This document shows, in pieces, positions 2,751-8,673 of a DNA stretch of 40,048 bases (the first letter of the stretch is position 1; each line of letters begins with the position of its first letter). The translations under genes and the position numbers were made by a program. Where the stretch lies: positions 1 to 40,048 of the forward strand of contig PFSB01000011.1 in NCBI GenBank assembly GCA_002788855.1, given 5' to 3'. The stretch is from Candidatus Roizmanbacteria bacterium CG_4_9_14_0_2_um_filter_38_17 (GTDB lineage: Bacteria; Patescibacteriota; Microgenomatia; GCA-00278855). The notes below the pieces were generated by a model. It was given only the letters and a program-made list of their open reading frames with translations. It ran no database searches and was not told where the DNA came from.

Positions 2751-3437
2751 TTAATCTATTTGAATATCTTTAATTATAGAAAGTTTCTGTTCATCAGATC
2801 TATTAGTAAGTGCCCCAATAAGCTGATTTTTATCTGTAAAATAATCAGGTAATCTTCCCACACTAATAATTTTTTGCTCCCTAGTGTCAATTAATTCGGG
2901 GACACTTGACCACTGATAAACTGGGTTAGTATTGGAAACCAATTTAGCCTCTATTGGATTACGTAATACATAAAGTATGAGCTGATGCAGCTGTTCATCA
3001 GTTATAGCTCGTAGCGCTTTATATCTACCCTGAAATAAAGATCCAGTCATATTATATTTTTGATTAAAGTATTGGGTAAACGCGGTCGATAATTTATGCA
3101 TATACTTTGAAATACCATATTCTACATTTTGCTCGAGGACCATATGATAATGATTAGGCATTTCAACATAAGCGTAAATCAGAACTAAAGGCTTATCCAT
3201 TCTATATTTCTTCTCTATTTCAGAGATATACTGATCAAGATCTCCGTTATGCTCCTTCAAGTGCTCCAATCTTTGAGCATAGATACTGAGAGGATAATCA
3301 AAATGTGCGTACCAATATAGCATTCTTTCCCATTTGACATAATCAGAAGAGGATAAAAATGTATCGCTCCTGTGAACTCCACGATTATAGACGTGATAGA
3401 CATAACCCACAGCAAAATCCGACTTTCTGCTAACCAC
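2751..3437 (-). CDS. RAYT/IS200-like Y1 transposase (REP-associated)
   Basis: A 228-aa single-domain transposase of the HUH/Y1 superfamily. Seen: HVYNRG near the N-terminus (residues about 15-20), the metal-binding HUH motif in MPNHYHMVL, the following helix with candidate nucleophile tyrosines (YGISKYMHKLSTAFTQYFN), then GSLFQGRYKAL and YVLRNPIEAKLV, all standard for REP-associated tyrosine transposases. RAYTs act on single-stranded palindromic repeats and are usually domesticated single-copy genes. Start is GTG at 3437; an overlapping ATG lies in another frame. The gene sits between two inverted AAGGG-N5-CCCTT palindromes, the expected REP-BIME arrangement. It appears intact. Confidence 0.9.
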   Translation of the reverse strand: MVSRKSDFAVGYVYHVYNRGVHRSDTFLSSSDYVKWERMLYWYAHFDYPLSIYAQRLEHLKEHNGDLDQYISEIEKKYRMDKPLVLIYAYVEMPNHYHMVLEQNVEYGISKYMHKLSTAFTQYFNQKYNMTGSLFQGRYKALRAITDEQLHQLILYVLRNPIEAKLVSNTNPVYQWSSVPELIDTREQKIISVGRLPDYFTDKNQLIGALTNRSDEQKLSIIKDIQID

Positions 3438-3475: not shown

Positions 3476-3497
3476 AATTAAGGGGTGAACCCTTAAT
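3476..3497. repeat. REP-like palindrome, right flank of the RAYT gene
   Basis: AATTAAGGG, loop GTGAA (reverse complement of TTCAC), then CCCTTAAT. It is the inverted copy of 2712-2734 and ends 2 bp before the stop codon of the Clp-like gene. Confidence 0.85.
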
Positions 3498-3499
3498 CT

Positions 3500-5647
3500 T
3501 TAATTCAAAAGAAGTTTGTCTGCCAAGGGAGAGGTTACAATCCTTTCAATGGCTCTGTTTATCTCTCTTGCCCCAAACTCTGGCTTATATCCTTCCTCCA
3601 CAATTTTATCTAGTAGTCGCTCTGTTATATCAATAGGGTCTCTATGCTCAGCGTTTAGTCGCACATTTAACTGCTTTAATTTCATAACTGCAATTTTTTT
3701 AAGCTCATCTTTCCCAAGTGGCTTAAAAACAACAACTCCGTCAAATCTATTTACAAATTCAGGACTAAAAATACTTTCCTTTAATATATAATTCAACACT
3801 TCTGTTTCTAAGCCATGACTATCTATATTCTCTCTAATATACTCTGCAGCAGCATTAGAAGTGCTAATGATAAAAGCATTCCTGCAATCGACCCGATCTC
3901 CATCAAGGTCCATAAAATATCCCTCATCAATAATTGACAAGAAAATATTCAAAAGATCCTTGTGAGCTTTTTCTATCTCATCCAACAAAAGTACGCTATA
4001 TGGTTGTTTTCTAATCTGCTCAGCTAACTCAGCTATTAACCGATTTGAATCACTTTTATTCTGAAAGTTAGACATATCAAATCTAGTCAAATGCGACCTC
4101 ACATCCGCAAAATAAATAGCAGCCAAGGCTTTGGCTGTCTCGGTCTTTCCCACACCAGTTGGACCCAAAAATAAAAAGCTCGCCAAAGGCCTATTTTCAC
4201 TCTGTAGTCGTAATCTTGCTCTCCGCAAAGCATCAGAAATTTGCGATATTGCCATCTGTTGATCAACAACATGTTGATGTAATAAATCTTCCATGTTTCT
4301 TAGCTTAGCCTTTTCCTGTGGACCAATTTCTGATAGGGGAGTTTTAAATTTAATCTCTGCCACTTGTTTTATCTTTGCTGGCGTGACTTTTACTTCTTGC
4401 TTATCTCTCACCTCTAGAGCCATTTCTTCCAAAAGGTCAAGCGATGCATCGGGTTGATTATTCTGCGATCTGTTTCCTAATTCAATTATTAAATCTAAGC
4501 TCTCAACTGGAAATACTGTCTTAAACTTTTTTTCATACCTTAATGAACTTGTTTGTAAAAGTTGTAAGATATATTTATTAGCTAATGGCGGGATTTCTAT
4601 GGGTTCCAAGATTTTTTGAATAAGCTCATTTTTTAGCAGCACTTCGTGATATGCATCCGTTGAAGTTAAACCAATAATGCGCACGTCTTCTTTTTGCACA
4701 TAGTCTGCCAAAACTCCAGAAAACTCAGCAACCATATGAATTTGATCAAGTACCAAAATAATGTTTCCAGCTTGTGTTGCTTCATCCAGCAAATCTTTCA
4801 ACTGGGCATGTATTTGATCGGCAGATTTTCCAGCTCTAGATAGTCTTGGAACATCCAGCTTTACCAATCGGTTATACCTTAATTTACCTGGAATAGATGC
4901 GTGATCAATACTCAATCTTCTGGCAACTTCATAAATAACAGCATGTCTTCCGCTACCAGTAGCACCATAAACAAGTACACCAGGCTGCTTTTCCCTTTTC
5001 AAAATTGTCAGAATTCTTTCAACCTCACCATCTCTTCCTATTATTTCGTTCTCAACAATATTAACCTTATCTGTCAGGTCCAGTGAATATTTATCCAATA
5101 AAACTGTGTATCCATAATGCCAACTGCTAAAAGGAGAAACAATCGAAAATAACCCATGCTCGCTATTTGAAGATTTGTTTTTAGTCCTCCAGTATCTTTC
5201 AAACCACTCCACGGCTATATTAAATCCTTGATCAGTCATTGTATGATCTTTCACAAACCTCCTTTTAGCGGAAGATTTTACTCTGGGCTTCCTAAGTTCG
5301 CCAATATAAAATATCAGAGAAAAAGGAAAAAAAATAACCCACAATAGAGTAAATATCATTCCAATGATAGTCGTTGGCAGGCAAACTGCCACCCACACAA
5401 CAAGCACAGCTGATCGAAGTATTAACCCAATAACACTAGAGATAAAATTAAAAAAAAGCTTTGAAACCTCATGCTCAATATCTAATCCTCTAGTTTTTTT
5501 AATATCTATAATCAGATGCCATGGCACCAACAAAGTTCGAAATAAAAGCCCAGCCGCAAAATAGTGAGAGTAAAATTGCAGTAGAGTATCCGTCTGTTTC
5601 AGAATACGCTTCGGAACAACCCAAAAATGCCATACAAAATAATGCAT
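3500..5647 (-). CDS. Membrane-anchored Clp/HSP100-like double AAA+ ATPase with degenerate first module
   Basis: A 715-aa protein. Residues 1-115 hold hydrophobic segments (about 28-48, 66-90 and 92-115), replacing the ClpC N-domain. The first AAA+ module (about 200-420) is degenerate: Walker A GATGSGRH at 228-235 has Arg for the catalytic Lys and Walker B LVLDQIH at 298-304 has Gln for Glu, so it may bind but probably does not hydrolyse ATP. The second module (about 455-715) is canonical ClpA/B/C type: GPTGVGKT at 495-502, LLLDEIEK at 553-560, arginine finger in FVNRFD (631-636) and sensor-2 GAREINRAIE (692-701). It would be a membrane-bound unfoldase or remodeller. It follows the dockerin gene after 3 bp, so the three genes 8199 to 3500 look co-transcribed. 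No ClpP gene is in the window. Confidence 0.82.
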   Translation of the reverse strand: MHYFVWHFWVVPKRILKQTDTLLQFYSHYFAAGLLFRTLLVPWHLIIDIKKTRGLDIEHEVSKLFFNFISSVIGLILRSAVLVVWVAVCLPTTIIGMIFTLLWVIFFPFSLIFYIGELRKPRVKSSAKRRFVKDHTMTDQGFNIAVEWFERYWRTKNKSSNSEHGLFSIVSPFSSWHYGYTVLLDKYSLDLTDKVNIVENEIIGRDGEVERILTILKREKQPGVLVYGATGSGRHAVIYEVARRLSIDHASIPGKLRYNRLVKLDVPRLSRAGKSADQIHAQLKDLLDEATQAGNIILVLDQIHMVAEFSGVLADYVQKEDVRIIGLTSTDAYHEVLLKNELIQKILEPIEIPPLANKYILQLLQTSSLRYEKKFKTVFPVESLDLIIELGNRSQNNQPDASLDLLEEMALEVRDKQEVKVTPAKIKQVAEIKFKTPLSEIGPQEKAKLRNMEDLLHQHVVDQQMAISQISDALRRARLRLQSENRPLASFLFLGPTGVGKTETAKALAAIYFADVRSHLTRFDMSNFQNKSDSNRLIAELAEQIRKQPYSVLLLDEIEKAHKDLLNIFLSIIDEGYFMDLDGDRVDCRNAFIISTSNAAAEYIRENIDSHGLETEVLNYILKESIFSPEFVNRFDGVVVFKPLGKDELKKIAVMKLKQLNVRLNAEHRDPIDITERLLDKIVEEGYKPEFGAREINRAIERIVTSPLADKLLLN

Positions 5648-5650
5648 GCG

Positions 5651-7579
5651 TTAATTTTGTGACACGGACACAGTGGAAACTGAGTTACCAATATTATGAA
5701 TTATAAGTGAAATATCCACAGCATTGACCCTTCCATCCAAGTTAACATCCTCAGCCAATATCTCCCCAGCCAGCTCCCAAGTTTTTCCATATTGACGGAT
5801 AACCCTAGCAAAATCCAAAGTAGTAATATTCCCACTCTCATCAATATCAATTCTCTGTTGCAAAGAAGAAGCTTGGGAACCACCCACCTTAGTGAATTTA
5901 TAATTATCATTATCCCAAGTAATATCTATATTAAAATAGTACATTCCGATTCTTAAGTTGACTGGAGCTGGTGTGTACAGTGTTACATCGTTTTTATCCA
6001 ACACTCCATATTTTAGCTCGTAATCAATGTTGGGAAGAACATTATTGAGAAAACTTACTGACAAAGTGTAATATTGGCCAGTAAAATTAAGGCCACTGCG
6101 GATAGTAGTGCAACTTCCCTCTGATGGACACAGTTCTGAAATGTTAACCAGATCTTTTATTTCTTTACCAGATTGATTATTAAAAATATAATAAAGCTCT
6201 ACCTTCGGTTGACTAGTAATGGTAGGAGTAGGAGATAGAGTTTGTGTAGGTGTCACGGTAGGCGAAGGGGTAGCAGTGGCTCCTGCTGTTCTTGTAGGTG
6301 TTGGTGTAGGTGTAGCATTAGGAACGCTTGTTGGACTGGGAGTTGGAGTTTGAGTTGCACAACCAGCTCCTGTTGATGTAATACCACTTTCACTGCAAGT
6401 ATAAGTACAGTTATTTTTTGAATCAATATCACTACCAATCTGCCTTGAATATGTGTCACAGCTAGCACTACACGCATTACATTCATAATATTGGCAATGT
6501 AGAAGGCGATCATTTCCAGGAATTGATATAGAGTTACCACTGACAGTGCAAGGGTTATTACTGCCAGGCCAATTGCTTATTCCCTCACTACACGAATTAG
6601 CTGACCAAATGGTGGAGCAAATACCACCACTACTATCTGTCCACTTAATAGATTTACGCTTGACCTGTGTATTTGGAGTTGGAGTAGGTGTACTGGGTGC
6701 ACTCACCTCACCCGTTGGAGTAGGTGTACTAGGTGTACCTCCTACATCTCCACCCACTGTCCCCACCGCAGTCTTACCAGTACAGCGAGTTGTGGAGATA
6801 AAATCACGTCCCACCATCGTAAATGCAGATCCTGCGCTCATATCAGACGGCATTACACAGTTAAATGTAGCCGTATCTCCATTCCATCCACCAAAGCTAG
6901 TATCAGAAGGGCAGATATTCTCAGGCCAATCAGTTGCCGGATCCCATGATTCTTTTCTCACTAATCCACATGAAATCTCGCCAGACCCAGGCGCCGCAGA
7001 CACCTTCACTCTACAAGTAAAGCTCTCTCCAGCATTAGGATTCGCCTTGTTCAAAGTCACACTATCTATCGGTGTACATTCTCCATCATCATTACCACTA
7101 CTGCCTGGTGTTGGGGTAGCAGTTGGTGGATTTCCTCCACTGGTAGGAGTTGGACTTGGATTACCTCCAACAACAGGCGTAGGAGTCACAGTTGGTGTAG
7201 ATACATCAGCTATTGGAGTGTTTTCAGAATGGCCAGCTGTAGACCGAGTATTACAAGCGCCATCAGGTGCCTGTAGATAGTCATACTGAGTGCTACCATC
7301 CCCCGTCGCATAACATCCACCTAATTCACGACCTCCACCACATGCTTCCCACCACCTGCATCCTGCATATCCGCATCCATAATTATGATTATTCAAGCAG
7401 CCTCCACCGCAGCCTTCAGGATTAGTGCAATTAACCGTGGCTACTCCTATTTCCTGCGCCTTTGGAAATGATTCTTGAGTGCTCTTTTGCACCAAAGAAG
7501 TACCTGCCAAAATCCCTGCAATAGCTGCCAGAGTTATAAGTAATGGTATTGCTGCAAGTCCTCGTCTCATTTGTTTCAT
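5651..7579 (-). CDS. Large secreted protein with Thr/Pro linkers and C-terminal dockerin-like repeats
   Basis: A 642-aa modular surface protein. Residues 1-30 form a signal peptide or membrane anchor (MKQMRRGLAAIPLLITLAAI). Then come a Cys/Gly-rich module (about 50-95), a TPTP-rich linker, an Ig-like region with Cys, a second TP linker, another Cys-rich segment (about 310-410), a third TP linker and a beta-rich region. The C-terminus carries two calcium-loop repeats typical of type I dockerin: DIDESGNITTLD at 578-589 and DVNLDGRVNAVD at 611-622, each followed by a short helix. Dockerins bind cohesins; the gene directly upstream encodes a cohesin-like domain, with a 4-bp overlap. No catalytic domain is recognised. 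The TP linkers are low complexity and produce a misleading Val/Gly frame on the other strand. Confidence 0.8.
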   Translation of the reverse strand: MKQMRRGLAAIPLLITLAAIAGILAGTSLVQKSTQESFPKAQEIGVATVNCTNPEGCGGGCLNNHNYGCGYAGCRWWEACGGGRELGGCYATGDGSTQYDYLQAPDGACNTRSTAGHSENTPIADVSTPTVTPTPVVGGNPSPTPTSGGNPPTATPTPGSSGNDDGECTPIDSVTLNKANPNAGESFTCRVKVSAAPGSGEISCGLVRKESWDPATDWPENICPSDTSFGGWNGDTATFNCVMPSDMSAGSAFTMVGRDFISTTRCTGKTAVGTVGGDVGGTPSTPTPTGEVSAPSTPTPTPNTQVKRKSIKWTDSSGGICSTIWSANSCSEGISNWPGSNNPCTVSGNSISIPGNDRLLHCQYYECNACSASCDTYSRQIGSDIDSKNNCTYTCSESGITSTGAGCATQTPTPSPTSVPNATPTPTPTRTAGATATPSPTVTPTQTLSPTPTITSQPKVELYYIFNNQSGKEIKDLVNISELCPSEGSCTTIRSGLNFTGQYYTLSVSFLNNVLPNIDYELKYGVLDKNDVTLYTPAPVNLRIGMYYFNIDITWDNDNYKFTKVGGSQASSLQQRIDIDESGNITTLDFARVIRQYGKTWELAGEILAEDVNLDGRVNAVDISLIIHNIGNSVSTVSVSQN

Positions 7580-8199
7580 GGTTTATCCATGATCTTTATC
7601 ATTAATGTATTACTTCCTGTAAGAATATTTTTGCCTTGTGCCGCAATTGTCGAATTATCCTGATCAATATTCAAATCAGTCTCACCAATAGCAATTCCCT
7701 TAAATTCAATCAAAAAAACTGTTTCATCGAGCCGTACTGGATCTGCCACTCCCACAGTCCCGGATACCTTAATAACCCCATTGCCATATTCTACTATTGG
7801 ATAGGCTGGAAAAAGCGCTGAGGTTTTAACAGAAACTACATCCACTAATGCTTTATCATAATTCAAGACAAAATCAAAAGCCTCTATTTTTTCTCTCTCT
7901 GTCTTTAGCAAAACAGCAACTGTCTTTTTTTCATTAACCGCGAGTTCAAGCATTCCAGGGCTAAACTTATAACTTGGGCCCGAAATAATCGTTGACTCTG
8001 TCGGAACGGTTGTTGGTGCAATGCCAGACTGCTTTGTAACTAAATTTTTAGTCAACACTGGGAGCAGAAAACCAATTCCAAACACCACAGCAATAATGAT
8101 AGCGGGCTTTATCCACACCTGAAGTACACTTTGACCAGCTTCTGGAACGTTTTTCTCCACATAAATATGGTAAACTAATTTAAGTAATTTTGCAATCAA
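7576..8199 (-). CDS. Membrane-anchored cohesin-domain protein
   Basis: A 207-aa protein with one transmembrane helix (about residues 31-49), a short Thr/Pro/Ser linker and a C-terminal beta-sandwich (about 77-205) resembling a cohesin: an opening like LAVNEKKTVAVLL, then EAFDFVLNYDKALVDVVSV, GVIKVSGTVG and FLIEFKGIAIGETDL. Cohesins bind dockerins; the next gene ends in dockerin repeats and overlaps this one by 4 bp (ATGA). I infer that this is the cell-bound receptor for that protein. The longest frame starts at TTG 8199; GTG at 8160 keeps the membrane helix and is a reasonable alternative. It is divergent from dcd. Confidence 0.72.
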   Translation of the reverse strand: MIAKLLKLVYHIYVEKNVPEAGQSVLQVWIKPAIIIAVVFGIGFLLPVLTKNLVTKQSGIAPTTVPTESTIISGPSYKFSPGMLELAVNEKKTVAVLLKTEREKIEAFDFVLNYDKALVDVVSVKTSALFPAYPIVEYGNGVIKVSGTVGVADPVRLDETVFLIEFKGIAIGETDLNIDQDNSTIAAQGKNILTGSNTLMIKIMDKP

Positions 8200-8214: not shown

Positions 8215-8673
8215 ATGATACTCTCAGATCAAGATATAAAAAAAACAGTAGAAAAGGGGAGACTTAAAGTAGATCCAATACCTAATTGGGACGAAGCTCT
8301 AGGCTCTTGCACGCTGGATTTAACACTAGGCGAGGTTGAAGAAAATAAATATACTCTCTTGCCCAGAGATTTTGCCCTAGCCACCACAACCGAATATATA
8401 GAAATACCAGACGACCTTTGTGGCATCTTACATGGCCGCTCATCTCTGGGTCGCCGTGGTCTCACCATCCACTCAACAGCTCCCATGTTTGACGCGGGCT
8501 TCCGAGGCAAAGTGGTTCTAGAGCTTTTTAACTCAGGCCGTGAGCCAATTACCCTCCAAAAAGGCCAGCGCGTCTGTGCTATGTCTTTTGAGCAATTATC
8601 AAGCCCGGCGTTGCGCCCTTATCATAAGAAAGACTCCGCCAAATACCTCAACCAACAAAAACCCAATATTTAA
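8215..8673 (+). CDS. dcd: dCTP deaminase (Dcd family)
   Basis: A 152-aa dCTP deaminase/dUTPase-superfamily trimeric enzyme that makes dUTP (or dUMP in bifunctional forms) for thymidylate synthesis. Seen: GSCTLDLTLG (about 30-39), the signature HGRSSLGRRGLTIHSTAPMFDAGFRGKV around residues 73-100, and the catalytic-region Glu in LELFN just after it. It is about 40 residues shorter than E. coli Dcd (193 aa), as in other minimal members. Whether it deaminates only or also releases pyrophosphate cannot be told from the sequence. ATG at 8215, no Shine-Dalgarno, followed by a palindrome overlapping the last codons. Confidence 0.88.
   Translation: MILSDQDIKKTVEKGRLKVDPIPNWDEALGSCTLDLTLGEVEENKYTLLPRDFALATTTEYIEIPDDLCGILHGRSSLGRRGLTIHSTAPMFDAGFRGKVVLELFNSGREPITLQKGQRVCAMSFEQLSSPALRPYHKKDSAKYLNQQKPNI

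Follow-up and report, generated by a model that had tools for sequence, protein, structure and literature searches.

A conserved operon of a cohesin, a surface protein and a membrane-anchored Clp-like ATPase in Patescibacteria

Results

Genes and features at the locus

The window (the whole 40,048-nucleotide stretch of DNA analysed here) carries on its minus strand, from 8199 to 3500, three co-oriented and nearly touching open reading frames, which encode in succession a cohesin, a surface protein that we refer to as the cargo, and a membrane-anchored ATPase that we refer to as mClp. The frames lie at 8199–7576, 7579–5651 and 5647–3500; the first two overlap by 4 bp and the last two are 3 bp apart, which bears out the tight three-gene arrangement described in the initial annotation. 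A divergent dCTP-deaminase-like gene, dcd, starts on the plus strand just upstream (8215–8673; PF22769, 112.7 bits); its product is short at 152 aa and lacks about 30 residues that its homologues in family f23, which is distant but belongs to the same class, have. Just 3' of the operon, a consensus scan picks out a stem-loop at 3477–3497 that might be a terminator. Directly after the trio comes a minus-strand gene for an IS200-like/REP-associated tyrosine transposase (2751–3437, PF01797), and a similar-looking protein is encoded after another cohesin/dockerin cluster, on contig C24 of the same genome (L018, 5022–5672, plus strand). Elsewhere in the window are a complete 16S rRNA gene (295–1814) and, after it, a gene for a prepilin-like T2SSG/N_methyl protein (1924–2460).

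The first gene (7576–8199, minus strand) was predicted by the initial annotation to encode a cohesin-like protein anchored in the membrane, and it does match Pfam Cohesin PF00963, at 28.6 bits against a cut-off of 24.1, its relatives scoring 34.7–41 bits. The anchor is N-terminal and single-pass, with the transmembrane segment at about 8032–8094 and the cohesin domain at about 7585–7968. A profile built from the window cohesin and its operon relatives matches solved cohesin structures, first 3kcp (E=5.9e-6) and after it many other scaffoldin cohesins; the AF2 model from the single sequence has 8 strands at a pLDDT of 39. The true start is probably GTG 8160 (MEKNVPEAG..., about 194 aa) and not TTG 8199, because the f23 relatives in the orthologue alignment begin MEQK/MEEK at that place and because TTG 8199 would be separated from the divergent dcd by just 15 bp.

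The second gene (5651–7579, minus strand) encodes a single-pass cargo of 642 aa, with a signal anchor at its N-terminus, Cys-rich and Ig-like domains, TP linkers and, at the C-terminus, a dockerin. Here, too, the dockerin that had been read from the sequence of the TP-linker protein is confirmed by Pfam (Dockerin_1, PF00404, 45.6 bits against a cut-off of 22.9). The dockerin domain lies at 5681–5866 (minus strand; Pfam match at residues 578–630), and it is of the canonical two-loop kind, with two F-hand calcium loops exactly at residues 578–589 and 611–622 as claimed (5813–5848 and 5714–5749). The Ig-like domain (residues 166–288) is homologous to one in an f23 cargo (genome G040, locus L184; E=7e-7), the comparison scoring 25.2 bits against 12.0 for the best of 200 shuffles. 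An FN3-like domain common to the window and f23 cargos before the C-terminal plug was looked for and is not detectable, and the Pfam scan of the window cargo shows neither enzyme nor carbohydrate-binding domains. With respect to class III (pilin-like) processing of the anchor, G-F-x-x-x-E is present in some f23 cargos, its Glu is missing from the window cargo, and Pfam N_methyl matches none of the window and f23 cargos scanned.

A Clp-like ATPase without the canonical pore loops

The third gene (3500–5647, minus strand) encodes a protein of 715 aa that matches AAA_2 and ClpB_D2-small, and the initial reading of it as a Clp-like double AAA+ protein with membrane helices stands, several such helices being predicted. 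Hydropathy places an N-terminal membrane domain at 5294–5590 (minus strand), a helical hairpin with a P-W motif at residue 42; a proline-aromatic motif is present in this region in 76 of 94 members of the class, in an alignment that also took in the ClpB- and ClpC-like proteins of the window genome. No Clp_N domain is matched in mClp among the Pfam families listed. The AAA+ core is modelled by AF2 with moderate confidence (pLDDT mostly 70–90), and Foldseek ranks ClpC and ClpB first for it; for the membrane domain there is no confident model, the result being unreliable there because the AF2 input consisted of distant homologues only.

The two rings have fared differently in the alignment. In ring 2, Walker A and B, sensor 1, the arginine finger and the sensor-2 Arg are kept in all 94 members, and the GYVG pore loop has been either deleted or replaced (deletion site 4016–4042 in the window, minus strand), the Tyr column being a gap in 86 members and non-aromatic in the rest. 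In ring 1, Walker A is degenerate in the window (GATGSGRH, 4943–4966, minus strand) and its lysine is present in 72 of 94, Walker B is degraded, one of the two finger-motif arginines is lost, and the column of the pore aromatic (KYRG/KFRG) is aromatic in none of the 94. Some members have an aromatic residue nearby (12 at ring 2 and 27 at ring 1, out of 94), and our claim is therefore that the canonical loop has been lost, not every aromatic.

Other Clp proteins, cohesins and dockerins in the genome

The genome of the window measures 1.09 Mb, a very small size that is in keeping with a CPR bacterium, and is 98.85% complete. ClpP was not found in it, at that completeness, while 12 of 14 control genomes were positive. 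Two ordinary Clp proteins are encoded elsewhere (contigs C9 and C13). The ClpC-like one on C9 (1233 aa; L020, 3560–7261) has roughly 300 extra residues in ring 2 past sensor-1, at about the position of the ClpP-binding loop in ClpC and ClpA. Genome-wide, trio locus included, Pfam matches cohesin five times, at three places, and dockerin three times; further cohesin and dockerin proteins are on contigs C24 and C5, and some carry both domains. Beside the C24 cluster lies a gene for a subtilase-like protein of 809 aa with a weak dockerin-like match (L018, 5838–8267).

Recurrence of the trio in a distant family

The initial annotation knew of no other linkage of a cohesin/dockerin pair with a Clp-like ATPase. 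The trio is not unique to one genome: cohesin, cargo and mClp also stand together in f23. The window genome is the sole sampled member of its family and order; the comparison spanned the class. The complete order of cohesin, cargo or cargos, and mClp is present in the f23 genomes G147, G081, G071, G040, G057 and G098; in G137 the cohesin and cargo are followed by a frame that runs into the contig end and has two membrane helices that match the N-terminus of mClp; G090 has the cargo first, then the cohesin and mClp; and the loci of G176, G157 and G022 are broken off at contig ends. In four f23 genomes (G147, G137, G057 and G081) dcd stands divergent and immediately before the cohesin as in the window, and intergenic distances from −4 to 6 bp are again seen within the trio of several genomes. 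Most f23 genomes keep the cohesin beside mClp while their cargos vary.

Cohesins occur in 237 of 374 genomes of the class, so that a chance neighbour is possible, but it would be rare: with 2–7 cohesins per genome and 1200 genes, a cohesin would by rough estimate fall in one of the two upstream same-strand genes in about 0.2–0.6% of genomes. Because of their common ancestry the f23 members do not count as independent cases; nevertheless, the same four-gene order in two separate lineages (f1 and f23) is very unlikely to have arisen by chance. We regard the trio as real because it is found again in f23, far from the window genome within the class. Two f23 genomes have more such domains: directly downstream of mClp in G098 are two proteins with both cohesin and dockerin domains (L186, 9750–11960), and contig C6 of G057 has about 20 dockerin matches in 24 kb (about 44845–68350).

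Many f23 cargos, though their bodies vary, have in common an anchor at the N-terminus, often KGEIATLLT, and at the C-terminus a module of 60 residues, W-x-N-G-Q-I-x-P-x-x-x-S-x-F-I...RVPGLQKATCDP, carried by up to three successive proteins at one locus (G081, G022 and G057). The module gave 20 matches in the 26 genomes searched, all of them in f23 and at mClp loci or contig ends. It has no Pfam or PDB match. The idea that it is a degenerate dockerin was tried and found no support (HHalign probability 8.9%). As the module is not recognisably a dockerin, it is from its position only that we infer that it plugs into the adjacent cohesin. The two differing C-termini of the cargos, dockerin and f23 module, predict a new cohesin-binding module. 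In a tree, the operon-adjacent cohesins of f23 form one clade (support 95/100) apart from the other cohesins of the same genomes; neither the tree nor leave-one-out profiles place the window cohesin inside this operon type, the profiles scoring it at 56.8 bits for the f23 operon type and 75.4 bits for the others.

Distribution of mClp

mClp itself is not tied to cohesins. At E<=1e-70 it has matches in 204 of 380 genomes of the phylum, some of which may be ordinary Clp proteins, so that mClp or its close relatives occur in about half of the sampled genomes. Eight of the best loci outside the class all have membrane helices and lack GYVG. A search with generic Clp patterns, uninformative for mClp, returned mostly proteobacterial ClpG-type proteins. 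Most mClp loci read in the class have no cohesin beside them; the neighbours include, in f6 and f37, genes for thymidylate kinase, for a Big_1 protein and for an NTP transferase as well as rpsB-tsf (which is near the window mClp too), PBP and topA in f3, TspO, FKBP and LytR_C in f18, and SOD in f13. In some families dcd is near mClp without a cohesin, and G025 and G129 read dcd, a GEI-anchored protein and mClp with no cohesin in between. A further mClp-like gene in G157 is more divergent and lies among other neighbours. In the mClp tree the window protein groups with that of G025 of f2 (SH-aLRT 97), outside the f23 clade. Given this breadth and the mostly cohesin-free neighbourhoods, we consider mClp an old, general component, to which some lineages have probably added the cohesin/cargo pair.

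Discussion

The conserved cohesin–cargo–mClp operon is confirmed as real; the functions considered below for its ATPase are proposals. It is reasonable to infer that the cohesin and the dockerin cargo would serve surface attachment, as was first proposed. We give a probability of about 0.5 to the reading that the locus is a conserved surface-protein operon in which mClp remodels membrane proteins without threading them. In such a scenario, the cohesin, exposed at the outer face of the membrane, would capture the operon's cargo by the dockerin end, and this cargo, anchored also at its N-terminus, would thereby be held at both ends; alternatively, the cohesin might capture the cargo of neighbouring molecules, perhaps giving an ordered surface layer or an adhesin complex. 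mClp would be embedded in the membrane, its ATPase rings lying on the cytoplasmic side, and its conformational change would assemble, space or dissociate membrane proteins via the membrane domain, with no pulling by the pore.

The main rival, to which we give somewhat less credence, holds that mClp is a general membrane ATPase of Patescibacteria with a housekeeping function, and that the cohesin and cargo have settled in the slot between dcd and mClp, the link being positional. The breadth of the matches across the phylum, the varied non-cohesin neighbours, and the families with dcd near mClp and no cohesin, G025 and G129 included, are all as this would predict. It sits less easily with the 4-bp overlaps and 2–6 bp gaps in several genomes, and with the cohesin being kept beside mClp in most f23 genomes while the cargos vary. 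Extending the remodelling reading to the whole phylum, we might picture mClp as a non-threading membrane Hsp100 that acts as a remodelling switch for membrane and surface assemblies, a bacterial functional counterpart of the torsins, which two lineages have wired to a cohesin with interchangeable C-terminal plugs on the cargo, a dockerin in one lineage and the f23 module in the other; we offer this tentatively and think it doubtful.

The partners at the surface need not all come from the operon. The window dockerin might bind cohesins of the C5 and C24 clusters, and vice versa, which the number of cohesin and dockerin matches in the genome, and the other proteins with both domains, would favour. 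However, the overlapping genes suggest matched production of cohesin and cargo, and we consider such promiscuity unlikely.

As for the ATPase, the initial annotation allowed that it might extract or export the pair, and this part of it is not supported, given the loss of the canonical aromatic pore loops and the lack of a cohesin beside mClp in most genomes that carry it. If mClp were an unfoldase or extractor bound to the membrane, threading surface proteins so as to remove them from the membrane or carry them across it, this would accord with the Clp/Hsp100 fold and the intact ring-2 ATPase site. Yet torsins, which likewise lack these loops, have been judged unlikely to thread (PMC4999309, PMC5425593), and the loss of GYVG in all 94 members, together with the degenerate ring 1, its aromatic missing at the aligned position, and the undetected ClpP, makes extraction or export by threading very improbable here. 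By analogy, a membrane-remodelling role for mClp, loosely like that of torsins, seems more likely than threading. Cellulosomes are defined by cohesin and dockerin. That the cohesin docks polysaccharide-degrading enzymes in a cellulosome-like degradative complex is hardly to be expected, even though expressed cohesin and dockerin genes of Shapirobacterales have been interpreted in this way (PMC9123182) and an f23 cargo of 903 aa (L172) resembles a TIM barrel on visual inspection, since the window cargo has no enzyme or carbohydrate-binding domain, the f23 cargos scanned have none above the Pfam cut-off, and the locus has a single cohesin and no multi-cohesin scaffold.

Few surface-assembly mechanisms are known for these tiny, probably host-associated bacteria, and here is a compact conserved operon in which receptor, cargo and ATPase can all be named. 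The sequence of the mClp family, which is common in the phylum, speaks against threading of the textbook kind, and knowledge of its role would have a bearing on the way in which AAA+ proteins function when the pore gives no grip.

Comparison with known systems

The limited open literature searched yielded no description of the operon or of the mClp ATPase family. For a cultured Saccharibacterium, a dockerin protein has been listed as one of the essential genes (PMC10633639). Non-cellulosomal cohesin and dockerin modules (Peer et al., 2009, as cited in PMC10066038) resemble the present ones in that both domains occur outside a cellulosome in single-domain proteins; here, in contrast, they are paired in an operon with a membrane Clp-like ATPase, and a different module takes the place of the dockerin in f23. 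The scaffoldin and anchoring systems of Clostridium thermocellum are related at the level of domains, the profile of the window cohesin and its operon relatives matching the cohesins of CipA and of anchoring proteins and the window dockerin aligning with that of CipA (E=0.015), whereas enzyme domains and a multi-cohesin scaffold are absent from the operon and no SLH domain was found there.

mClp shares with ClpC and ClpB the single chain with two AAA+ rings, the catalytic residues of ring 2 and ClpB_D2-small, but has a membrane N-domain in place of Clp_N, a degenerate ring 1 and no GYVG, in a genome in which ClpP was not detected. Torsins, eukaryotic Clp-like AAA+ proteins, are like mClp associated with membranes and devoid of aromatic pore loops (PMC5425593, PMC4999309). 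We treat the likeness as an analogy, no homology beyond Hsp100 being shown. Torsin and LAP1 pair an active AAA+ with a degenerate one, as the active D2 and the degenerate D1 are paired in mClp; in contrast to torsins, which lack the arginine finger, mClp keeps it in 94 of 94 members and joins its two rings in one chain.
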